From: Xiphophorus maculatus
Taxonomy: Eukaryota > Chordata > Actinopteri > Cyprinodontiformes > Poeciliidae
Direction: 5' to 3'
DNA: 64,000 nucleotides
NCBI RefSeq assembly: GCF_002775205.1
Contig: NC_036464.1
Coordinates: 3,287,817 to 3,351,816, forward strand
Part shown: one piece after another, positions 25,461 to 61,656 of the stretch
How the letters are laid out: the number at the start of each line of letters is the position of its first letter
How positions within the stretch are numbered: the stretch's first letter is position 1
Notes under the pieces: model-generated
What the model was told of the DNA's origin: nothing
Database searches by the model: none
What the model saw: the letters and a program-made list of their open reading frames with translations, nothing else
Translations under genes and position numbers: made by a program

Positions 25461-26500
25461 TGAGTATGTGCGCTCGCGTGATCACAGGGATGACGTCAGA
25501 GGCTGTGTATGGGTATTCAATTATTATCATGAGCTTCACGCATTTCTGCCCGTAAACAGCCATGCGCGTGCGTGTTGGTGTCCGGGGCAGGGGGAGGTGG
25601 AGATTGTTCTGCTGCATGAAAAGGTTCCGAACCGGGAGTCTGATCCAGAACTCAGGATGCCGAACGAGGAGCTGAGATGGTCCGCATATGGAAACCATGG
25701 CAACCAAGCAGGGCGCACCGGAGACAGAACCCGACCAGAACATGAGGATGAGACTGAGGCAGGCCGGGCCTTCAGTCTGTTAGAGCTGGGCATCAAAATC
25801 ACCTCAACGGTCCAGCTGTAAATACCGGTTACAGTATAAAACTATTTTAGTTTATAATATGATGAAACAGATCCAGTTTTAGTTACATAATGTTTCAAAC
25901 ATGTTTTTATTTACGTCATACTGCTAATAATACACATATCTCCATAATAACTTCTCTTCCGTCTTTTCATTGTTAAGCTGCCTTTATTAATACTTAAAGC
26001 TAACCCTAACACTAATCCCTTCAAAATAAAATCATATGCTCTCAAAACAGAAGTTAATCATTAACCGCCAAAAAGGGAAACAATAAAATACAGAACCAAA
26101 TTTAGAACATCATGAAGCGATTCATAAAGTCCAGAGGACTCCAAAGCTTCATTCAGCGACGAAGCTGAAGTTGGTTTCCGATTCGGGAAATGGCTAAAGG
26201 GCGATTCCACCTAATTATTTACAACCTTCCGCATCTTTATTCGACTCTAGTTTAAAAATTACAACATCTGGACTCTTCACACCTGGACTGGATTATTCTG
26301 CTCTTATAGCAGAATAATTAAAACCTTGTTTATCTTTTTGTGAAACCTTTATTTGATTTGTGAAACTTCACTTAACAGACAGCTGCAGATCTTTCCTTCC
26401 AGCAGCCATCAAAATCTACAATACCTCTCTGAAGAATGAATGAGTTACACCAACATTTAATTTCCCTTTGGGATTAAAAAAAAACCTGCATGGAACTATT
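25461..26500. other. presumed intron 1 of the SynDIG-type gene
   Basis: AT-rich sequence after the donor at 25460, with no recognisable exon or transposon protein. Only the tandem repeat that follows stands out. Confidence 0.4.
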
Positions 26501-26888
26501 AACATGTAACTACTATTAGCATGTAGCTACCATCAGCATCTAGCTACTGTTAACATGTAACTACTATTAGCATGTAGCTACCATCAGCATCTAGCTACTG
26601 TTAACATGTAACTACTATTAGCATGTAGCTACCATCAGCATCTAGCTACTGTTAACATGTAACTACTATTAGCATGTAGCTACCATCAGCATCTAGCTAC
26701 TGTTAACATGTAACTACTATTAGCATGTAGCTACCATCAGCATCTAGCTACTGTTAACATGTAACTACTATTAGCATGTAGCTACCATCAGCATCTAGCT
26801 ACTGTTAACATGTAACTACTATTAGCATGTAGCTACCATCAGCATCTAGCTACTGTTAACATGTAACTACTATTAGCATGTAGCTACC
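26501..26888. repeat. 51-bp tandem repeat, about 7.6 near-identical copies
   Basis: The 51-base unit includes ACTACTATTAGCATGTAGCT and CATCAGCATCTAGCTACTG. Copies are almost identical, which implies recent expansion or homogenisation. It lies in the presumed first intron of the SynDIG-type gene. Confidence 0.95.
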
Positions 26889-27153
26889 ACACGCTGATGG
26901 TGTCAGATCTGTCCGCGTTAGCGGTACTGCAGGTGCTACTATTTAGTGGACAGTAGCCCTGGCTGCCCAGTCCTGGGGTACTGAGGCCAGGCTGCCTGCA
27001 CAGCGTCCTCTGTAAGGACGGTGAAGTGTCTTGCCCAAGGACACGACGAGCCGCCACAGGGTGAACTGGTTGCTGATGGTTGCTCTCTAGGCCTCTTCAG
27101 GACCAGCAGCCAACAGTGACAGCTTCCTGTTCCTATTCCAGGTCACAGTCTGA

Positions 27154-44773: not shown

Positions 44774-47700
44774 CTACACAGGGACACACAGGAGCTAGCG
44801 TCAGGAGCTAAGGTCAGGGCAGGGGTTAGCGTCAGGAGCTAAGGTCAGGAGCTAGGGTCAGGAGCTAGCGTCAGGAGCTAGCGCCAGGAGCTAGGGTCAG
44901 GAGCTAGGGTCAGGAGGTAGAGTCAGGAGCTAGGGTCAGGAGCTAGCGTCAGGAGCTAGCGTCAGGAGCTAAGGTCAGGAGCTAGGGTCAGGAGCTAGCG
45001 TCAGGAGCTAGCGCCAGGAGCTAGGGTCAGGAGCTAGCGCCAGGAGCTAGGGTCAGGAGCTAGGGTCAGGAGGTAGAGTCAGGAGCTAGCGTCAGGAGCT
45101 AGCGCCAGGAGCTAGGGTCAGGAGGTAGAGTCAGGAGGTAGAGTCAGGAGCTAGCGTCAGGAGCTAGCGCCAGGAGCTAGGGTCAGGAGGTAGAGTCAGG
45201 AGCTAGGGTCAGGAGCTAGCGTCAGGAGCTAGCGCCAGGAGCTAGGGTCAGGAGGTAGAGTCAGGAGCTAGCGTCAGGAGCTAGCGTCAGGAGCTAGGGT
45301 CAGGAGCTAGCGTCAGGAGCTAGCGTCAGGAGCTAGCGTCAGGAGCTAGCGTCAGGAGCTAGGGTCAGGGGTGCAGTCAGCCTGCAGTTCTCCTCCTGTC
45401 AGTCGGGGGCACTCACGTGAAGCTGGAGGCCTGGTTGATCAGGATGCTGTAGTCCTCTGGCAGATCGATCAACCTGTTGGACTCTCTGGGGAACCGCACC
45501 AAGACTCCGCCCCCACGGAGCACCTGGCCCACACCTGGATGGCAGCACCACCTGGAGCAACACACACACACTCAGCTGGATTGCGTCAGCTGTTGTTCCG
45601 GCTTCTGTTTCTCTAATGTTTTCATCCGTTTCCATGGAAACAGGAACCAGAGACCAGGTGTGAAGGACAGCAGCAGATCACCTGGCTGGTCAGAAACGGA
45701 CTGGGAGCAGACTGGGACAGGACTGGAAACGGACTGGGAGCAGAATGATAACGGACTGGGAGCGGACTGGGAGAAGAATGATAACGGACTGGGAGCAGAC
45801 TGGGACAGGACTGGAAACGGACTGGGAGCAGAATGATAACGGACTGGGAGCGGACTGGGAGCAGAATGATAACGGACTGGGAGCAGACCCCTCCCCCATG
45901 CGCTCCATCACCTTGCGGACTCTGGCTGGGGGCAGAGGGTAGGATCAGGGTCAGAGTTCGTGACTAACACATGGCACAGCTTCACAGCTCCTCCTCCTCT
46001 TTCTGCCCCCCCAGGGTTGGGTTTTGATCTGAAGCACCTGGCAGCTCACCTGGACCGGTGGTCAGGTGGGTTACCTGTGGATGAGCGGCTCCAGCAGTGT
46101 GCGGTGGTTCTGGTACAGCAGCAGCAGGTTGGAGGGAAGACTGAGGTAGCTACACAGCGCCTCCCACTGGCCAGGTCCAGTACCTGCAACCAATAACAGA
46201 CAGGTTCAGGTGAAGCTGCCGCAGGTGGAGGTGTGCAGCGTGCAGGTGTTCTCACCCAGCAGGTCAGCAGGGGGCGACGCAGAGTTCATGTAGTGGAAGA
46301 AGAGGGCTGCGGTCCGGAGGAAGGGCAGGACGCCGGCTCTGACACACCTCCACAGGCGCCACCCAGAGGACACGTCAGGTAAACACCTGCTCAACGCACA
46401 CACACACGCCTCGTCAGCCAATCACATTCTCCATCCACACGCCCGATGGAACCACCGTCACACACCTGCCCAGGTGATCCCTCAGCCTGCCGTACAGCTG
46501 ACAGGTGAGTCGCTCCTCCTCCGACTCCTCACCGTCCTGATCCATACTCGGCTCACCTGGACACCACAGGGACAGGTGAGTGACAAACAGGCGAGGGACT
46601 AGCCGTCTCTGTCTGAATGTCCTTCCCTACCGGCTGTGAAGGTGAGCAGAACCTGAACCAGGTGAGCCACAGTGACCAGGTGAAGCAGGTGAAGGTGAGC
46701 TGAATCCACAGAGCTTTGTCCTGATTGGTCCAGACTGTGCAGGGAGCTGGAGGACAAGACGCTGTACACCTGCAGACAGGAGGGCAGGGGTCACCTGGGG
46801 GTCACCTGGGGGTCACCTGGACACTACCGGGACTCACCAGCAGGTGGAACATGTCCACATCCAGGATGCAGGGAGGGTCCTCCAGCTGGGAGTCCGGAAC
46901 CAGAACCAGAACTGGACCAGACAGAAACCAGTTAGTGTGTGGTGTGTAGTGTGTGTGTGTAGTGTGTGTGTGTGTACTGTGTGTGTGTGTGTGTGTACTG
47001 TGTAGTGTGTGTAGTGTGTGTGTGTACTGTGTAGTGTGTGTAGTGTGTGTGTACTGTGTAGTGTGTGTGTGTGTACTGTGTAGTGTGTGTAGTGTGTGTG
47101 TGTACTGTGTAGTGTGTGTACCTGACAGCAGCCTGATGAAATGGTTCTGAACGGTTCTGATTGGAGCAGTGGTCCAGCAGGCTGAACTGAACCGGGTCAG
47201 AGAACTCAGACAGTCATTCTGAAACACAACAGGTCAGGCAGAGGTCAGAGGTCACCCTAAGGCTGAAGGCATAATACCAGGAGGCGCTCTCACCTGTCGA
47301 CAAGGTAAGCTTCCAAACAACGGCTTCTTCTCATCCATCAGGAGGCGCTCTGCAACGAAAAGACAGGAAACTAAATCACTCCTGACCCGGGGTTACCTGC
47401 CAGGTAACGAGTCAGCAGATGACCTGTAGGCCAACCTGCCAGGTGAGAGCGTACCTATGCTCTGCATGGTGTAGGCGCAGGTGGACCAGCTCAGCACCGG
47501 GACTCGGGGGTCCTGCTCGTTGGGGTTGACCTTGAGGCCGACCTTGTAGGCCGACATGCTGAAGGTGTTGATCATCTCACCGACGCCGCTGGAGAACGGA
47601 TTCCTGAGGGAGGAAGTGATATCGCTGCTGACATCATCAGCAGTACCGCTCAGCCCCGCCCCCCAGGCGTTGGGACTCACTGTGGCACAAAGCCGACCCC

Positions 47701-50700
47701 GAACCTGTCAGGAACCGCTGGCTCCGCCTGCTGGGCCGCACCTGCAACAGACACCCACTTGAACACCTGAACGCCGGCTGATAGCCCCGCCCCCCGGCAG
47801 GTGACTGACCGTGTGACTGCTTCCTGTGGGTGGAGTCTAGTGCTGCTGCTTGCTGATTGGTTCTCTTCAGCCAGGTCTCCAGACACAAATGCTCCACGCT
47901 GAGGACAAACAACCGTCAGGAAGCTCCGGCAGCGCGGCACGTCACACCTGTACCTGAGTGTGGGCACTACCTGCGGTCAGGTGAGGAGGCGTGAGGCAGC
48001 AGGGGGATGACGGTGTTGCTCAGACATTCGCACAGCGGACACAGGAACTCCCCGTTCTCCACGTCGTAGCTGGTGTGACCTCTGAGCCGCTGCTGCCGCC
48101 TCTGCTCCTTCTGCTGCACCGCCTCAAAGTACCTGAGCACACACAGGTAGGGGTCAGGTGGGGTCAGGCCAGCTGGCTGCCGATGGGACGACGTGGCTGC
48201 AGGGGGTCACCTCTGCCAGCAGGTGGCATGCATGATGTGTCCACAGCTGGCGGTGTGGACGCCCACCGAGAGGTCAGGGTGCACGAAGAGCGGGTCGAGG
48301 CGTTCTACAACAGAGAGACGAGTCGTCAGCGCCGACCAATCGGGGAACAAGCGGCTGGACGCCGCGGCTAAGCTCCGCCCACCTGGGTCGGAGACGCAGC
48401 GACTGCGGTTCTTGGACAGCACGGTGGATCTCTGGATGAAGGCTGCCAGCACCATGGCTCTGCCGTGACCTCTGACCTCCTGCACCTCTTGACACAGGAT
48501 GCAGGTGACCAGCTGGCGGCGCTCGGCCCCGCCCACCCGCCTGGGGCCCACGCAGATCTGAGCGGCACAGGTGGGCTCCGAACTGGGAGGACTGGGAGCG
48601 AAAAGGAGAACACGGTGGAGACAGAGAAAAACCAGTATACAGAGCTGTGCCTCCAGCTGTGCCTCCAGCTGTGCCTCCAGGTGTACCTGTGCTCGGCGGT
48701 GGCGGCGGCCGCCTCCAGCTCCTCCATGCTCTGCTGGAACAGCTCCTTGTTCTCATTGATGAAATGTTTCTGCATCTCAGACATCTGGGCCATGACCTTC
48801 TCCCTGCGGAGCCGCGCCATCTCCGCCTTCCGCTTCCTCTCCGCCTTGTCCTTGTCCCTCACCGTCTGCAGGAAGCCGTCCAATCAGAGCAGAGGGCGGG
48901 TCAGACAGGAAGCCATCCAATCAGAGCAGAGGGCAGGTCAGACAGACGGGAAGTGAAGGACTCACCTCCTCTGGGCGGCGGCCATGGCTGACGCTGACGC
49001 TGGAGCCAGACGTTCGCTCCCTCGTGGTTTTGATGTTTCCCACCATCTGCACACCAACACACCACGTCTAACTCACTGGGAACCAGTCAGGCCACTGGAG
49101 CAGCTACACCTGCAGCTGCAACTACCTTGAGGATCCAGGTGATCATGTCCTTGTGGACCTCCAGGTGAGGGGCGCTCTGCAGGTTCTCCAGCAGAGCCAG
49201 GATGCTTCCAGAGGTGCTGGGAGCCTCACCTGGACCTGAACACACAGGTGAATCACAGTCAGACCGGCTGCTCCTCACCTGCACACCAGGTGAGCTGAGC
49301 TCAGGTACCGACGTGTGATCTTGCTGCTGAAGGTGAAGGAGACGTCTTCGTCTCCGCCGCTGCTCTCCAGCTGCTGCTGCTCCTCCAGCAGCGCCATGGC
49401 AACCAGGTGCAGCACCTGTAGGGAGAGGGAGAACTGGATCAACACCAGACCCAGACCCAGGTCCAGAACCAGACCCAGAATCGGGTCCAGAACCAGACCC
49501 AGAATCGGGTCCAGAACCAGAACCAGACTCAGAACCAGACCCAGAATCAGGTCCAGAATCAGACCCAGAACCAGAACCCACCCTCTGCAGCATGGACTCG
49601 GTCCAGCCTCCTCCGCTGGGCTCTCCTGCCCACTGCAGCACGGCGCCCTCTAGTGCCAGCAGCACGTCGCTCTGCAGCAGGTTGACCAGGCTGGCGAACG
49701 GCGGGCAGAGGGGGGGCGGCCGGGGCGGGGGCAGGGCTGCAACACACACACAGGTTACCATGGTGACCAGGTGAGTCTATGACGGCTCTGTATCTCGTAC
49801 AGAGACAAGGAGCTGCCAAAAAATTAATAACATTTGTTGTTTTTTTAAAGTAAATTAAAAAGATGTTTAAAATAAGTTGCTTTATAGCTAAAAGGGTTAA
49901 AGGTCAGAGTTCGGCGCAGCGCCTGCAGCTGACGGCTGGACCCACTCTGGTACCTGCAGGGCAGAATAATTTCTGAATTTGTATTATCCAACCGGCTTCA
50001 CTGTTAACAGAACTGTAGAAAAAAAGATCTTTTGTGCCAAAACATCTTGTATGCAGCGGGTCTGTGGGGGTCAAAGGGCACGCCGAAGCCTAAATCTTAT
50101 TGGTCAGTTTGCTTTTGTTAATCTGGCGGCTTGGCGTTTCTCTGTGAGCTAAAAATGAACGAGTGGAGTTTGAACCTCCTATAGTTCTAAGAAGTGGTTT
50201 GGACCCGGCGGAGCGTTTTAACGGGTGCGGTTCTGACGGGTCGCTGGTTCTGACGTCCGCTCTTTCTGAGCAACTCAGACTGCGAGTTAAACCATTTAAT
50301 CTAGTTGAAACATTTCCCAAAAGCAAACATTGTTGCTTCACCTTCTGTCCTCTGGACGTGTGAAGCTGTGACCAGCAGCCTCGTCTCTCTGAGGTCACAG
50401 GGTCGGCTTCGCTCTCACGTCTTTCATTTAGCATCGATTGTACCGAGAAAAAATGTCCGCTGGGTAAATTTAGGGTTGAGCTGGTGGCCTGGACAGCCGG
50501 TTGTGCTCTGGCAGGTCCGGTGCGGCGATAGTTTAGTGCTGCCCTCAGATCTGTCGGACATTTTTTCTGACTTCTGCTGATGTCAGCCACCAGGTGAGCT
50601 GTCAGCTACTCAAAAAACAGCTCATGACCCAGCGACCCGCCAGAACCGCACACGGTAAAAAGCTCAGGCTGAATCTTAGAACCACGAGAGGATCGAACTC

Positions 50701-53700
50701 CAGCCATTCCTCTTCAGCTCACAGAGAAACGCCAAGCCGCCAGATTAACAAAAGCAAACTGACCAATAAGATTTAGGCTTCGGCGTGCCCTTTGACCCCC
50801 ACAGAAGTACACGATGTTTTGGCACAAAATACATTTTTTTCTACACAGTTTTGTTAATAGTGAAGAGGGTTGGACTATAACTATTCTTTTCTTTTTTTTA
50901 TTTAAAGGAAAATCTCAAGGTCTCACAGCTGCAGCTGCCGCAACAATCAAACCGTCATTCTGGGTCATTCAGAATCAGAAAAGCTCCAGCAGGGAATCAA
51001 AGTTAAAACGGTGAACTAAATCACCACTGATGGCTGCATTAGTAAGACCAGGATGTAATCGTACATGTCTGATTGTGATAAAGCCAAAATAATTCATGTC
51101 CTGCCCTTCGTGTTGCTCTGGACCATGAAGCGGCCCCCGGCCTCAGGTTGGTGACCCCTGACCTATGACAGGAACCGCTGCTCACCTGTGTCCTCGCCGT
51201 TCTGTCTCCTCAGCTTCCTCTGAGCCTCCTCTGCCTGAAACGCAATCCGTAACCATGACAACCCATAACCATGACAACCCGTAACAAGCCGCCGAAGCCC
51301 GACCGGTTCCGACCCGGTTACCTTGGACTGATCCGCCCGGCTGTAGTGATGGAAGTAGAGGTCGAAGTGTCTGGACCACTCAGGACGCAGCTCATACAGG
51401 CCCCGCCCCGTCACACCTGGCTTCCTGTCAACACAACACACCTGCTGCTGACCGCTGTTAAGGTGGACATGTTTAAGGCGGAAGGCCAACAAACACAGAC
51501 TGACCTGAATGATGCAATGCTGTCAATGACTCTCTCCAGACCCGTCTCTTTGTTGCCCTGAAAAACACCATGCAGCCAGGTGAGCAGCCAGGTGAGCAGC
51601 CAGGTAACCATGGTAACGGCTGTGTCTTACGTTCTCAGGCAGACCCTTGACCAGCTCGCTGTGAGCCATGGGTCTGATGCACAGCTGGTGGAGGATCTCC
51701 CTCCTGACCTCATCCAGCGGCTCCACCTGGCCGACACCCGGAACGTAGCGCTCACCTGGAGGACCGGGACACGTCGGAGGTCAGCTCACCTGCTGCAGGT
51801 CAGCCGGAGGTCAGCTCACCTGCTGCAGGTCAGCCGGAGGTCAGCTCACCTGTCGGACTCACCTACCACCATGATGACGAGATGCAGCATCTCCTCTATC
51901 AGCGTGTTCTGTTGGGCCAGGTCCTGCACACAGAGCACACAGAACCGGGTCAGAACATCAGAGAATTATATGTCCATATCGCCCATCTCCAACCTGACCC
52001 GGTTCTGGGTTCTGACCCAGTTCTGACCTTGTTGGCCTCCCTGTATCTCCTCCGCAGGTCGGCGGCGCTGAAGGTGTGGAAGAGTTCGAAGCGGCTCAGA
52101 ACGATCATCAGGAAGTGATTCGGATCCATCATGGAGGCGCCGACCTGGAGAAACAGCAGCCGTTACCAGACCCAACCAGAACCAGAACAGAACCAGAGCT
52201 GACCCAAGCAGGACCAACCAGAACCAGCGTACCTGCAGCATGGCCAGGTCCTTGTCGAACATCTCCACTCTGCACTTGACGTTGTGATAGTAGTAGATCT
52301 GGAACACAGGAAGCATCAGCCGCTGTTGCTGCACACCTGGGCCTCTCAGCCAATCACAGACACTCACCTGGTTGATCAGAGAGAAGCCATTCCTCCTCCA
52401 CATCCCAGCATGCACCTGTGCACAGAGCACCAGGCAGCGCAGAGGCAGCTCTATCAGCAGGTGAGGGCTGAGCTCCCCCTGGTGGACAGAGGCAGTGATT
52501 GGTCAGGAGCCTGGAGGTCGACTGGCCGGAGGTCACCCAAACAGAGGTCGCCCGAACAGAGGTCACCCGAACAGAGGTCGCCCGAACAGAGGTCGCCAAG
52601 AGGTCACCCGAACAGAGGTCGCCCGAACAGAGGTCGACCGGCCGCTGGCCGGAGGTCACCCGAACAGAGGTCGCCCGAACAGAGGTCGCCAGGAGGTCAC
52701 CGAGCTGCCCACCAGAGGTCACCCGGAGGTCGCCCACCAGAGGTCACCCTGAGGTCGCCCGGCTGGAGGTCACCCGAACAGAGGTCGCCAGGAGGTCACC
52801 CAGCCGCCCACCAGAGGTCACCCACCAGAGGTCAACCACAGATCGCCCACCAGAGGTCACCCACCAGAGGTCAACCACAGATCGCCCACCAGAGGTCGCC
52901 CGGCTGCACAAAAAAGAGGTCAACCAGAGGTCAACTGGAGGTTGCCTGTCGACTGACCAGGGGCAGCTGTTCGGGGAGTCGTGACGCCACCTCGGTCCTG
53001 CTGAGGAGAACATGGAGTCCTGAGAGGAGAAACAGCCAGGTGAGGATCAGGTGAGCTGCAGATACCGTGATGCTCCTCTGGTCGCTCCCGCTCACCTGCT
53101 AGCAGCCTGCATACAGGCAGGTGGATGGACACCTTCTCCTGGGACACCTGGTACCTGAAGGTGTCCACGGCGTGACCCGCCAGGCTCAAGCTGATTGGCT
53201 GCTCGCCGTCCGGCAGGTCGCTCTGGCACTGACTGAGCGCGCTCAGACACTTCTTATACGCCTCGATCAGAACGTGCTCCTGAGGGCGCAGATGGTCACA
53301 TGATCAACACCTGAGTAACACAAGCCCCGCCCCCAGAGTAACTAGGTAATGTTGGCCAAGATCTCCAACATCCTGCATCACATGATGAATGCATGCAGCT
53401 TGTTGCTGCAGGGACTGCAGGCTCACGTCACTGCTGCACTGTGCTACATGCTACAGCTACATGCTACGGCTCACGTCAGTGCTGCACCATGCTACGGCTA
53501 CATGCTACGGCTCACGTCAGTGCTGCACCATGCTACGGCTACATGCTACATGCTACGGCTCACGTCAGTGCTGCACCATGCTACGGCTACATGCTACGGC
53601 TCACGTCAGTGCTGCACCATGCTACGCCTACATGCTACATGCTGTGGCTCACGTCAGTGCTGCACCATGCTACAGTTACATGCTACGGCTACATGCTACA

Positions 53701-56700
53701 TGCTGCGGCTCATGTCAGTGCTGCACCATGCTACGGCTACATGCTACATGCTGCGGCTCACGTCAGTGCTGCACCATGCTACGGCTACATGCTACATGCT
53801 GCGGCTCACGTCAGTGCTGCACCATGCTACGGCTACATGCTACATGCTGCGGCTCACGTCAGTGCTGCACCATGCTACGGCTACATGCTACATGCTGCGG
53901 CTCACGTCAGTGCTGCACCATGCTACGGCTACATGCTACGGCTACATGCTGCAACTCACGTCAGTGCTGCACCATGCTACGGCTACATGCTACGGCTACA
54001 TGCTACGGCTCACGTCAGTGCTCCACCATGCTACATGCTACGGCTACATGCTGCGACTCACGTCAGTGCTGCACCATGCTACGGCTACATGCTACGGCTA
54101 CATGCTGCGGCTCACGTCAGTGCTGCACCATGCTACATGCTACGGCTACATGCTGCGACTCACGTCAGTGCTGCACCATGCTACGGCTACATGCTACGGC
54201 TACATGCTGCGGCTCACGTCAGTGCTGCACCATGCTACATGCTACGGCTACATGCTGCGGCTCACGTCAGTGCTGCACCATGCTACGGCTACATGCTACG
54301 GCTACATGCTGCGGCTCACGTCAGTGCTGCACCATGCTACGGCTACATGCTACGGCTACATGCTGCGACTCACGTCAGTGCTGCACCACTCCTGCATCAT
54401 GGTGATGATGTGCGTCAGCTTCATCTGCAGGGTGAAGGCCGCCTCCCACTCCGGCTCCATCTCGATGTGTTGGCCCACCTGTCTCACCACCGGGTCCATG
54501 CCCTGCAGGGACACGCAGGTCCAGTGAGGAGCGGGCCCCAGCTGCAGCTCCTCCTCCCGGCCGCAGCTTACCTGCATGCACCTGAGCAGGTCCAGGAAGG
54601 CTTCGAAGCCGTCCAGAAACTTGGTTCTGAGCTGCTGGCTCCACTGTGGGGGCGGGGAGATCAGGACGTACCTGCAGACACAGCGCACCCGGTGAAGAGC
54701 CTGGGGGGAAAATACCAGGTACCGGGCCAGACCGGGCCTTACTTCAGGTCTCCGATGAGGCTCTGGACCCGGCCGAACTTGAAGGCCTGCTGGGCGGTGT
54801 AGCGGTCGAACTGGAAGCGGCCCTGAGCGTCGCGGTGGCGAAGCTGATCCACGAAGGTTCTGATGATGGTCATCATCAGGTTCTCCTCCACCATCAGCAT
54901 CCGGGCCTGCAGGTACACACAGCCGCTTCTGAACCGGCCCGCTTCCTGACGCCAGCGGTGGCTGCACTCCAACAGGTGAGAACTGGTGAGCATAGGCTCC
55001 GCCTCCTTCGTCTGAGACTCACTACGCCTGAGCCGGCTTCCTTAACGCTAACGGCAGCTAAGCTAACTGTGGCTAAAGGCTACAGATAGCAGCTCACTAA
55101 CATTTACAGATCTCTGAAGCCTTCATGCTCTACATTATTAATTTTCTGATCACTGCAGTAGGTGGCAAATAGATAATCAATTATCCTATTGATTTCTCAT
55201 TCAGTCAAAACTAATCAACACTGTTTCCTCAAAGTAACGTTCTGTCGTTTGCATAGTGAACTTATTTAATAAGTTCAAAACGATTTCGTTAATTTATGCA
55301 CTGCAGATCCGCTAGAGGGCGCCAGTGAGCCGGTTCAGACTGTGAACTGGTTCCAGTCCAGGCTGCATTCCTCCAGTCTTCCACTCAGAGTTTCTAGATG
55401 AACAGTTGACCTCTGACCCCGCCCTCCTGGCGGTGTTGGACCAGAACCCACCTCAGCTCAGCAGAACCGGGTCAGTACCACCGGGGAACCAGGAACTCAC
55501 CAGCGAGGGAACAGTGAAGATCTGCACCGACAGGTCAGTGACGGAGAACTGCCGGTCGTGGTCGTCTCTGATGAAGTCGCTCTGCAAGCGCTCATAGTTC
55601 TGGGGTCGGGGGTCGGGGGTCAGGGGGGACAGAGAGAGAGCGGTGTTGGGGCAGCAGAAGAAGAAGAGCTACTCACCACGGTCGGCACGGTGAACAGCTG
55701 CACCGACAGCGCCGTCACCGACACCAAGCGGTCGTGGTCGTCCTCCATGAAATCTGTCTGCAGCCGTCTGTAGTTCTACAGGGGGACAGGTCACCTCTGG
55801 GTCAGAGGTCAGAGGTCAGCCCCCAACACATACTGCTGTTACCAGGGAACCAATCAGAGCCCAGCAGAGTGTGGCTGCCATCAGTTGGTTCTGCTGACCT
55901 CTGACCTGTAGCATGACATGGGTCACCCAGAACCGGTTCTACTGGTTCAGTTCAGTGGTGATCAGAACCAGAACCAGAGGTCACACTGACCTACGAGACT
56001 GGTCTGGATCTAAACCTGGACCTGGTTCTGGACCAGTTTCTCAACTCAGAACCTAGGTACAGTTCTGCAGGCGGTCCGGTCCAGGTTGGGTCAGGTCAGG
56101 TGAGTTCTGAGTGTGGTCAAGTCTGTCCGGTCCATCTGGTCCGGTCCGGTCCAGTCCCTCTGGTCCGGTCCGGTCCATCCGGTCCAGTCCAGTCGGGTCC
56201 GGTTACCTTGGCAAACCGGATGGCGAACAGCTTCTTGAACTTGCGGTCCATCAGAAGGCTGTTCATGAGCAGCTGGTGGTAAATGTTCCGAGCTCCTGCA
56301 CAGACAGCCAGAACCATCAGAACCTGGCAGGCCCGGCGCCCTCCCCAGCCTGTGAACTCTGACCTTTCCACATCTTGGAGTCGTTGAGCATCAAGCGGTC
56401 CACCAGTGAGGAGTTCTCGCCCTCCGGACCGGGTCGCAGCCCCACCTGGCACAGGACCCGCCTCAGGCCATCTGAAAGAGCCACAGTGAGCAAAGCCATG
56501 CCCCAGGGCATCGTGGGTAATGCGGCCGAGACGTACCAGAGTACTGGATGATCTGGCCCAGCCAGCTGAGCGCCTTCAGAGCGAAGCACTGATGAGCCAC
56601 CAGCGCCGAGTGCATCACCTGGACCCGCAGGGGCTTGGACTGCCGGCTGGTGCTCCTCTGAGGGGCAGAGGTCAGGGGTCAGAGGTAAGGGACAAACTCT

Positions 56701-59700: not shown

Positions 59701-61656
59701 TAGCAACGTTAGCAGCTAGTTTCACCGAGTAACGACCTTTTCTTCCTGTTCCTACATCACAGAAATAGAGGCATGAATTATCAGAGAAGGCCAGATTTTG
59801 TTGAACGATAAATTGTTCCAGAAGTTATTGTGATAAACAATAATATTGCTGTTTTGAATATAATGGTAATAGCAAAGTAATGCAGGAACACATTCTCAAA
59901 TTTAAATTTTGATGAACATTTAACACTGAACTGGAAGACATTTTAAATATCCAAAATAAATAAACAAAACAAAGTGAATGATGACATTTATCATCCATGT
60001 TTTGGTAGAAAGAGAGAACTGATAAATCATGCCAATGGAAATTATTGATATTGTTTCTCCATGAACAGGTCAGGTGACTTACCTGCAGGAGTAGGTGGGC
60101 TCCCCCACCTTGAAGACGTGTCCACAGAGCGCCGCCGCCCCCCCGCCCTGCTGCAGCAGCGCCAGGCCGGCCGCTGGCTCCCCCCCCAGCAGGAGCCACT
60201 CCAGGGGGGCGAGGAGCAGCAGCTGGAGGGCCAGCTCCTCCCGCTGCTCCTCCCGCTGCTCCGCCACGCCGCCCCCCTGGCACAGGACGCGGGGCACGTA
60301 CTCAGCCAGGTGGCGGTACACCTCCTGCTGCAGGTCGGCACACGCCAGCCAGCGCTGAGGAGGAGGAAGGTCAGAGGTCAATCAGGTTACTGCCAGAAAG
60401 AACCGGATAAAACCTGCAGCTGATCCAGAACAGAAACGGTTCTGATGGAAAACACATCCAGATTACCTTCATCGGTTCCCTGTTAATCCAGATTACAATC
60501 TATAATCAATAACCCTAACCCCACTTCAAACTGGTTCTGTTGGGTCCAGGAGTAGAATGGGAGGCGGATCCTTCAGTCCCAGTTCACCCTGAATATTTCC
60601 CGTATTAAAACTTTCCTGACCTGCTGGCCGGGGTCATCCTGAGCTCCTCCTGTAGTCATGATGCTACCGGCTGCTGCAGGACAAACTGGCCACTCCTCCT
60701 CCCTTTCTTCTTCTACTACTCTCCAGTTTGCACCGTTTGCCGTCATTTTAACCTTTGGTTTCCTGTTCTTTTCTCTCCATGGCAGCTTCACCTGCTCTGT
60801 GTTCTGATTGTCTGCTTCCTTCCTGGAGGCGGCTGACATGATGCTGCCATCACCTAATCGCTCTCCCTCTCCTGGTATGAACCTACTTCTCTTCTGTCCA
60901 GGTATCCAGAACCTTCTTCTCTGGGTCCGAGTCCGGATGCGGTTCCGTGTTCCAGCAGTAATCTGGAACGCTGACCCGGATCCAGCCGCCGCTCTAAGGT
61001 CATTACTGGCCGGCTTCAAACCTGCAACCTCAATCTTAGACCCCATAGTTGCCGCCAGGGTCAGGGGGTCCGACCTGACCTGACCTTTGACCCAGGTCGG
61101 CCTCAAGGACTCCTCCACACCCAGAGCCTCAGCCTGGGAATCGAACCAGCGACCCTCGGCACCCTGCGGGGTGTCTAGAGGAAGGCGTCCACAGCCACGC
61201 AGCTCGCCATCATCCTCAGCTGTTTCCATGGCAACTGTCATCTGGTCCACAGGTGCAATGGGCCACACCTGATCATGTTTGTTAACCTGGCGTGACGTCA
61301 CCAGCTGTCCAACGACCCACAGCCCGCCAGAACCGACCCAGAACTCCCCAGAACCCAGAATGAGAGTAAGAAGCCCCGCCGCTGCTACCGGGAAGAACAG
61401 CTGGAGCTGACAGCCGCCAGCTGTGGCTACAGGTGTTCCTCCAGGAGAAGCGGCGCTAGCGCCGTTAGCTCCGCGGAGATTAAGCCGAAACAGGAGCCTC
61501 AGAGGCGGCCTGGGTCCGGCGGGCCGCCCCGCAGGACGGACCGCGCCGGACGGACCCGCAGCCTCCGGAGCCACTCACCGAGGCGGTGTCTCCGGGGGAG
61601 AAGCTCATGAAGTCAGCGCTCAGAGCGGACGGAGGATCTCTGGAAGGCTCCGCCAT
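43342..61656 (-). CDS. ubr2: UBR2, N-recognin E3 ubiquitin ligase (N-degron pathway), 1,751 aa
   Basis: RING-type ligase that binds destabilising N-terminal residues and marks proteins for degradation. Coding exons, 5' to 3': 61656-61579, 60354-60083, 59085-59007, 58946-58833, 58757-58627, 57049-56911, 56794-56732, 56657-56537, 56471-56364, 56295-56207, 55775-55677 or 55599-55501, 54906-54743, 54671-54572, 54502-54374, 53279-53096, 53019-52958, 52478-52368, 52298-52233, 52144-52028, 51923-51863, 51755-51631, 51557-51505, 51424-51322, 51234-51186, 49736-49582, 49415-49313, 49235-49126, 49046-48966, 48865-48687, 48591-48383, 48304-48211, 48132-47971, 47898-47810, 47741-47681, 47603-47455, 47349-47294, 47218-47122, 46911-46838, 46769-46631, 46556-46466, 46386-46256, 46183-46075, 45551-45417, 44773-44603, 44516-44415, 43483-43342. 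With one alternative exon the phases give 1,751 codons plus stop, close to human UBR2 (1,755). The C-terminus [19 protein letters not shown] is UBR2-like; UBR1 fits less well. The first 26 residues are not conserved. Confidence 0.97.
44791..45368. repeat. ubr2: 12-bp minisatellite (GTCAGGAGCTAG), about 48 copies
   Basis: Units GTCAGGAGCTAG alternate with GCCAGGAGCTAG, GTCAGGAGCTAA and GTCAGGAGGTAG. On the coding strand the array starts about 50 bases after the donor of exon 45417-45551. Confidence 0.95.
45692..45892. repeat. ubr2: minisatellite (ACTGGGAGCAGAATGATAACGG-related)
   Basis: Repeats of about 11 and 22 bases built from GACTGGGAGCAG, AATGATAACG and GACTGGGACAG, in a ubr2 intron. Confidence 0.9.
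46930..47121. repeat. ubr2: GTGTGTAGTGTGTACTGT tandem repeat
   Basis: Interrupted (GT)n with regular GTGTACTGTGTAGTG units. On the coding strand it begins at the donor of exon 47122-47218 itself (GTACACACAC). Confidence 0.92.
47971..48591 (-). other. ubr2: ubr2 RING-H2 region
   Basis: Exons 48383-48591, 48211-48304 and 47971-48132 give [19 protein letters not shown], then [16 protein letters not shown] and [19 protein letters not shown], the extended RING of UBR1/UBR2 with a long loop between the zinc-ligand pairs. The basic coiled-coil [19 protein letters not shown] lies in the exon before (48687-48865), as expected for the helices that bind the E2 RAD6/UBE2A-B. Confidence 0.92.
49434..49581. 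repeat. ubr2: minisatellite (CCAGAACCAGACCCAGAATC-type)
   Basis: Units made of CCAGAACCAG, ACCCAGAATC and GGGTCCAGAA. On the coding strand it starts inside the donor of exon 49582-49736 (GTGGGTTCTGGTTCTGG). Confidence 0.9.
49987..50876. mobile_element. ubr2: foldback (long inverted-repeat) element
   Basis: The left arm (about 49987-50290) returns in reverse complement as the right arm (about 50590-50876). GGGGGTCAAAGGGCACGCCG and TTGGTCAGTTTGCTTTTGTT, and the rest of a roughly 120-bp core, match base for base. A loop of about 300 bp lies between, with no transposase. It sits in the 1.4 kb ubr2 intron between exons 51186 and 49736. Such long palindromes are non-autonomous DNA elements mobilised in trans. 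Confidence 0.85.
51776..51852. repeat. ubr2: 30-bp triplicated segment carrying splice-like sites
   Basis: Two and a half copies of a 30-base unit fill most of a 107-bp ubr2 intron. Each full coding-strand copy contains CTGCAGCAGGTGAGC, that is an acceptor-like CTGCAG directly before a donor-like CAG|GTGAGC. Confidence 0.85.
52500..52935. repeat. ubr2: minisatellite (GAACAGAGGTCGCCC-type)
   Basis: Units of about 15 bases (CGAACAGAGGTCGCC, CACCAGAGGTCACC). On the coding strand the array starts some 20 bases after the donor of exon 52958-53019. Confidence 0.92.
53421..54373. repeat. ubr2: minisatellite with about 20 copies of a captured 5' splice site
   Basis: Units of about 40-55 bases (variable insertions of CTACATG and CTACGG) each contain CACGTCAGTGCTGCACCATG. 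On the coding strand this is TGGTGCAGCACTGAC|GTGAG, identical to the last bases of ubr2 exon 54374-54502 plus its donor. The array begins at that donor and occupies the first 950 bases of the intron. Very long plus-strand open frames here are artefacts. Confidence 0.95.
55501..55599 (-). other. ubr2: ubr2 alternative exon copy B (99 bp)
   Basis: In-frame 33-codon exon beginning [20 protein letters not shown] and ending with the PSL codons. It has a CCCCAG acceptor and GTGAGTTCC donor and lies 77 bases after copy A. The two share about 20 of 33 residues. Human UBR2 has, to my knowledge, isoforms that differ in exactly this segment, which supports mutually exclusive use. Confidence 0.85.
55677..55775 (-). 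other. ubr2: ubr2 alternative exon copy A (99 bp)
   Basis: In-frame 33-codon exon beginning [20 protein letters not shown] and ending with the PTV codons. It starts with AAC after a CTGTAG acceptor and ends at a GTGAGTAG donor. It is the first of two adjacent homologous exons of identical length and phase. Confidence 0.85.
57235..58620. other. ubr2: ubr2 intron between exons 58627-58757 and 56911-57049
   Basis: AT-rich intron sequence. No exon, transposon protein or tandem array was recognised. Confidence 0.6.
59265..59400. repeat. ubr2: short minisatellite (CCGGTCCCTACCGGACCAAA-type)
   Basis: Seven or so copies of a 15-21-base unit CAGTCCCTACCGGACTAAAC and variants in the second ubr2 intron. 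Confidence 0.85.
59405..60080. other. ubr2: ubr2 intron 2, proximal part
   Basis: AT-rich sequence in which I see no coding segment; it contains a TTGAACGATAAATTGTTCCAG and TATTGTGATAAACAATAATATTG palindromic stretch near 59800-59850 that may be an old repeat. Confidence 0.4.

Follow-up and report, generated by a model that had tools for sequence, protein, structure and literature searches.

Variable number tandem repeats (VNTRs) that span a 5' splice site (donor) are known from the human genes ABCA7 and CBS. The ABCA7 VNTR, located in intron 18, is reported to have a 25-bp unit, present as 23.7 units in the human reference, and splicing also occurs from a cryptic donor one unit further on, with a frameshift and a premature stop as the result (PMC5954066). 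Use of this donor is low (apparently 2 +/- 1 percent, as read from an inferred order of the figures) and independent of array length, and longer arrays are associated with more skipping of exon 19 and with lower expression (PMC5954066). The CBS VNTR has a 31-bp unit and is named c.1444_1467+7(16_21), which by the name covers the last 24 bases of the exon and the first 7 of the intron (PMC2630376). The array described here was found in the gene ubr2 of Xiphophorus maculatus, in a window of 64,000 nucleotides (nt) (assembly GCF_002775205.1, contig NC_036464.1, positions 3,287,817 to 3,351,816 of the forward strand); coordinates below are those of the window. The repeat unit includes the 5' splice site of the exon itself, and the array lies at the exon-intron border. 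The ubr2 array joins the layout known from the CBS and ABCA7 VNTRs, and the ubr2 case itself is new. Among the matches listed, which covered openly licensed PMC papers, neither a fish case of a donor-spanning repeat nor, in the 15 listed of 647 papers, a mention of ubr2 was found, which is weak evidence of absence.

The junction array and its host gene

The exon at 54502 to 54374 finishes with TGGTGCAGCACTGAC followed by GTGAGT, and TGGTGCAGCACTGAC, its last 15 nt, is the exon share of the repeated junction. With up to three mismatches to CAGCACTGACGTGAG allowed, 20 junctions including the authentic one were found, 19 of them downstream and the last at intron base 948 of 1,094. The first intron bases are 54373, 54319, 54265, 54217, 54163, 54115, 54061, 54013, 53959, and 53905 for copies 1 to 10 and 53857, 53809, 53761, 53713, 53652, 53604, 53563, 53515, 53474, and 53426 for copies 11 to 20, which gives spacings, in order, of 54, 54, 48, 54, 48, 54, 48, 54, 54, 48, 48, 48, 48, 61, 48, 41, 48, 41, and 48 bases. 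The array is nested, as an inner repeat composed of ATGTAGC and CGTAGC yields steps of 6, 7, or 13 bases, and the 19 units fall into 12 types, with identical sets formed by units 1, 3, and 5, by units 4 and 6, by units 9 to 12, and by units 15 and 17. The GT is kept at 19 of the 20 junctions, the sole exception being ATGAG at 53713, and 140 nt of unique intron are left after the array.

An exact search of the genome (704,300,149 bases in 101 contigs) for the 20-base junction TGGTGCAGCACTGACGTGAG returned 17 matches, all on the minus strand within the array and with the authentic junction included; the junctions missed carry variants (54013, 53713, and 53426). The reversed pattern of TGGTGCAGCACTGACGTGAG had no matches in the same 704,300,149 bases, and chance recurrence is thus excluded. 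The initial annotation had described a junction recurring about 20 times in near-identical copies at intervals of 40 to 55 bases, with one copy altered in its donor. All 19 downstream sites that it listed are present, with coordinates 1 to 3 bases off, and the near identity and the single altered donor (53713) were found as described; the spacings range from 41 to 61 bases. The weakness of the true donor within this gene, the nesting of the array, and the GCATG motifs of the intron, all treated below or above, go beyond the initial annotation.

The host gene was modeled on the minus strand as 43 exons which, taken in order, form a single open frame that starts with an ATG at 61656 and runs to approximately 46075, where the exon model ends and beyond which the gene continues. 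A 353-residue query scored 597.6 bits against a UBR2 chain (9wbv_A) and 403.4 bits against a UBR1 chain (9wbw_A). The gene is, as judged from its sequence, ubr2, nearer to UBR2 than to UBR1, and these scores together with the continuous frame of the exon model uphold the identity assigned initially. Two neighboring 99-nt exons (55501-55599 and 55677-55775, minus strand), both of which are counted in the model, encode similar peptides, as expected for mutually exclusive exons. The median length of the ubr2 introns was 87 nt (25 introns measured, the array-bearing one included), 7 of the 25 exceed 400 nt, and the introns on either side of the array-bearing intron are 69 and 76 nt long. Coordinates of the array and of the features around it are collected in Table 1.

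Table 1. Features at the ubr2 junction array (a slash marks the exon-intron border; U1 pairing in kcal/mol)
Feature	Position	Strand	Remarks
ubr2 exon 15 of the model, 129 nt, phase 0 at 3' end	54374..54502	-	Frame continuous, gapless protein alignment at junction
Authentic 5' splice site GTGAGT (GAC/GTGAGT)	54368..54373	-	U1 pairing -5.8
In-frame TAG for transcripts using any downstream donor	54356..54358 (+16 to +18)	-	Sequence reading
Minisatellite, 20 junction copies, units of 41, 48, 54, or 61 bases	53420..54388	-	Begins 15 nt inside exon, directly at exon-intron border
Inactivated copy, ATGAGC replacing GTGAGC (CTCATGTCAG on + strand)	53708..53713	-	U1 pairing -1.5
Last, most divergent copy CAGTGCAGCAGTGAC/GTGAGC, then unique intron	53421..53426	-	Donor here would give a 147-nt intron
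Array-bearing intron, 1,094 nt	53280..54373	-	Holds 56 GCATG
Following ubr2 exon, 184 nt, length not divisible by 3	53096..53279	-	Exon model

Origin of the array

The exon end encodes WCSTD and aligns without gaps to WCASDE in the solved UBR2 and to WCACDE in UBR1. Since this end is aligned as protein in both UBR2 and UBR1, the coding exon is taken to be the older element and the array its copy, and the direction of copying from exon to intron is shown by this comparison of sequences. Over 54 bases the authentic unit differs from the first copy at a single position, +6, and the exon border thus belongs to the array. The seeding event proposed initially, a duplication across the exon-intron border, is supported, and the repeated piece includes 15 exon bases. 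A tandem duplication over the 3' end of the exon and the start of the intron would have founded the donor-spanning minisatellite, which slippage or unequal exchange probably then enlarged over several rounds. Several separate local expansions are indicated by the recurrence of unit types in local runs, and the last copy (53426), being the most divergent and running into unique intron, is likely the old right edge of the array. The intron before the array is predicted to have read GTGAGC and then CTGCAGTCCCTGCAG, with a length of roughly 150 nt.

Two other accounts of the array were considered. Gene conversion, in which the intron repeat is the older element and has overwritten the exon end, would also leave an exon border homogenized with the array, but the exon end retains the W-C-x-x-D-E common to UBR2 and UBR1, which is unexpected from an unrelated intron repeat, and this account is hardly credible. 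That the existence or the length of the array is an assembly artefact is scarcely less improbable: the array is known from one assembly and tandem repeats are a classic site of assembly error, but 12 regionally arranged unit types among 19 units, flanks that are unique on either side, and an uninterrupted frame around the array are not expected from a simple misjoin. The exact copy number may nevertheless be off.

A 200-kb sample of the genome, made up of 20 stretches of 10 kb each, contained no match to the inner repeat AGCATGTAGC on either strand. Elsewhere in the window, an array at 26495-26889 with a 51-bp unit (7.7 copies, 99 percent match) contains AGCATGTAGCT, a word resembling the ubr2 inner repeat, so that this word is not peculiar to the ubr2 locus.

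Possible donor competition and its predicted outcome

Pairing with U1 was estimated in ViennaRNA as a duplex between the donor and the 5' end of U1. The energy of the true donor, -5.8 kcal/mol, is shared by the copies at 54163, 54061, and 53959 (all with T at +6); a further 15 copies pair at -4.7 kcal/mol, which is 1.1 weaker, and the dead copy has the value given in Table 1. The true donor is weak for ubr2, where the median is -8.05 kcal/mol over 42 donors and 12 of the 41 others pair more weakly. As the copies equal the true donor (three) or fall 1.1 kcal/mol below it (15), leakage to them is plausible. RNA accessibility was rejected as a discriminator, because the probability that positions -3 to +6 are unpaired is 0.0075 at the true donor and falls inside the range of the 19 copies (0.0007 to 0.029). 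Neither U1 pairing nor accessibility singles out the true donor, so that exon context must explain the choice of the first donor, if that is the one chosen. Pairing across the exon would favor the first donors (exons of 129, 183, and 237 nt) and short-intron pairing the last ones (introns of 147, 195, and 236 nt).

The TAG at +16 (54358-54356) precedes every downstream donor and all 19 extensions would therefore read V-S-R-S-M-stop, in keeping with the early in-frame stop anticipated in the initial annotation. The extension lengths (15 of 19 multiples of three, two with remainder 1, and two with remainder 2) are irrelevant given this stop. Across the 18 inner copies no excess of donor-killing changes was found (1 of 90 cells at +1 to +5 vs 7 of 216 at +7 to +18, p = 0.44). 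The exon-like part has fewer variants than +7 to +18 (1 of 270 vs 7 of 216, p = 0.025), from which nothing was concluded, since unit duplications are not independent. Selection on the donors of the copies was set aside as a candidate, positions +1 to +5 being neither richer nor poorer in changes than +7 to +18.

The array, a donor-spanning minisatellite copied from the exon, is probably tolerated as a by-product. The first donor would be used mostly, being attached to the real exon and to that exon's acceptor; a small share of transcripts probably exits from a later copy, reads into the common stop, and would be degraded by nonsense-mediated decay. The length of the array would set at most a modest leak, and a tolerated by-product is a likelier description than an evolved switch. 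Low-level use of the copies is plausible by analogy, the one-unit retention in ABCA7 being a measured precedent. Several points weigh against this account. The array is real, but its function in ubr2 splicing, and the use of any copy, we infer from the sequence. Given neighboring introns of 69 and 76 nt, the copies nearest the acceptor would be favored if short-intron pairing rules, and leakage could then be large; these copies also come out as somewhat more accessible in the prediction (0.029, 0.017, and 0.0076 vs 0.0075 for the true donor), and the scarcity of donor-killing changes may just reflect a young array.

An alternative, put forward in the initial annotation, is that the copies form a series of poison donors, the number of which sets the amount of productive ubr2 mRNA, as a copy-number rheostat. 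Such an arrangement is consistent with 19 downstream junctions that share one stop, with the three copies that match the true donor in U1 pairing, and with the weakness of the true donor relative to the 42-donor median, and by its title alone Lievers et al. 2001 ties the CBS VNTR to reduced CBS activity. However, retention of the ABCA7 unit is independent of array length, the length-dependent quantities being skipping of the next exon and expression, which argues against a simple rule of more copies and more decoy use, and the donors of the ubr2 copies bear no sign of selection. A rheostat of this kind is considered unlikely.

A further proposal adds RBFOX, which binds the core motif GCAUG with low nanomolar affinity (PMC9911399). 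Each unit combines a decoy donor with two to four GCAUG; binding downstream would promote the true donor, and copy number would alter decoys and enhancers jointly. The array-bearing intron has 56 GCATG in 1,094 nt vs 12 in the 14,376 nt of exons and introns examined elsewhere in ubr2 (Fisher p about 3e-53, the repeats not being independent), and the true donor is followed by all 56, the last donor by one. In Ntrk2, elimination of both (U)GCAUG clusters abolished isoform regulation by RbFox1, but removal of either one alone had little effect (PMC12435732). Against the proposal, 55 of the 56 motifs are AGCATG, in the array, and one, beyond it, is TGCATG; every donor from 54373 to 53809 has six GCATG within 100 nt downstream, so that near motifs do not favor the first donor; and GCATG-rich stretches occur elsewhere, the 200-kb sample having as many as 17 in 950 nt against an average of 0.865 per kb and strand. 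The abundance of GCAUG may be a coincidence of repeat composition. Donor choice tuned by RBFOX is considered very improbable, and as little credence is given to the self-made two-part rheostat that would follow, in which productive ubr2 splicing would depend on copy number and on RBFOX level alike. If true, the latter would make ubr2 splicing differ between RBFOX-rich and RBFOX-poor tissues. Brain and muscle are rich in RBFOX.

Other repeats near donors and comparison with known systems

Further repeats lie close to ubr2 donors. The 107-nt intron at 51756-51862 (minus strand) contains a 30-bp repeat with three extra CAG/GTGAGC donors (51849, 51819, and 51789), the first of which, if used, would lengthen the exon by 13 nt and cause a frameshift; U1 pairing of CAG/GTGAGC at two other ubr2 donors is -11.1 kcal/mol, vs -10.6 for the true TAG/GTGAGT of this intron. 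A 12-bp repeat on the minus strand (48643-48688) shares 2 nt with another ubr2 donor, but its copies read CAGCT and hence are not donors. A CA-rich array of 188 bp (46933-47120, minus strand) begins at a distance of 1 nt from a ubr2 donor and occupies most of a 210-nt intron. About 44 copies of a 13-bp unit (CAGGAGCTAGCGT) form an array at 44789-45369 (minus strand), apparently in a further ubr2 intron past the exon model.

Donor arrays were also searched for as three [AC]AGGT[AG]AG spaced 10 to 70 bases apart, a pattern that is blind to the ubr2 array junction GAC/GTGAG. In the window this pattern was found in the ubr2 intron 51862-51756 (starts at 51852 and 51822) and at three plus-strand starts from 46501 to 46638, antisense to ubr2. 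It was not found in the 200-kb sample, which is too small for a rate, and the reversed control was found neither in the sample nor in the window. For a tally of array positions, 20 arrays in the window were considered; two beyond the exon model and one exonic array were set aside, and the remaining 17 rows became 16 after two from one intron were merged. Of these intronic arrays, 7 of 16 have their start no more than 10 nt from a donor, compared with 1 of 16 whose end is as close to an acceptor, a bias that is probably due to constraint, because acceptors need a longer free stretch.

The ubr2 locus offers a natural competition between 5' splice sites, in which one exon and one acceptor are combined with 19 near-identical junctions at graded distances; three equal the true donor in U1 pairing, fifteen are slightly weaker, and one is dead, and the stop makes use of a copy countable. 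The copy number of the array could be traced across related species.

Among described systems, CBS 844ins68 is a single duplication of an intron-exon junction, whereas ubr2 has an array of the exon-intron junction. The abstract of Lievers et al. 2001 reportedly describes alternative splicing at the CBS VNTR. That VNTR resembles the ubr2 array in the tandem amplification of an exon-intron border (16 to 21 copies vs 20), but it is polymorphic in man and its units are invariably 31 bp (PMC2630376), whereas those of ubr2 vary from 41 to 61 bases. In ABCA7, as in ubr2, the array is located at a donor, that of exon 18, and its first two bases (GT) are the donor itself (PMC5954066). The ABCA7 array starts at this GT, whereas the ubr2 array copies 15 exon bases as well, and the 25-bp unit of ABCA7 contrasts with ubr2 units of 41 to 61 bp that have a nested inner repeat. 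The Discussion of the ABCA7 report cites SRp30c, YB-1, and Nova-1 motifs, not RBFOX (PMC5954066). ABCA7 is backed by RNA and population data, whereas the ubr2 array is known from sequence alone. The ubr2 array carries into another animal, and into a gene for a ubiquitin ligase, a layout that in man is linked to altered splicing, by measurement for ABCA7 and by the title and reported abstract of Lievers et al. 2001 for CBS.

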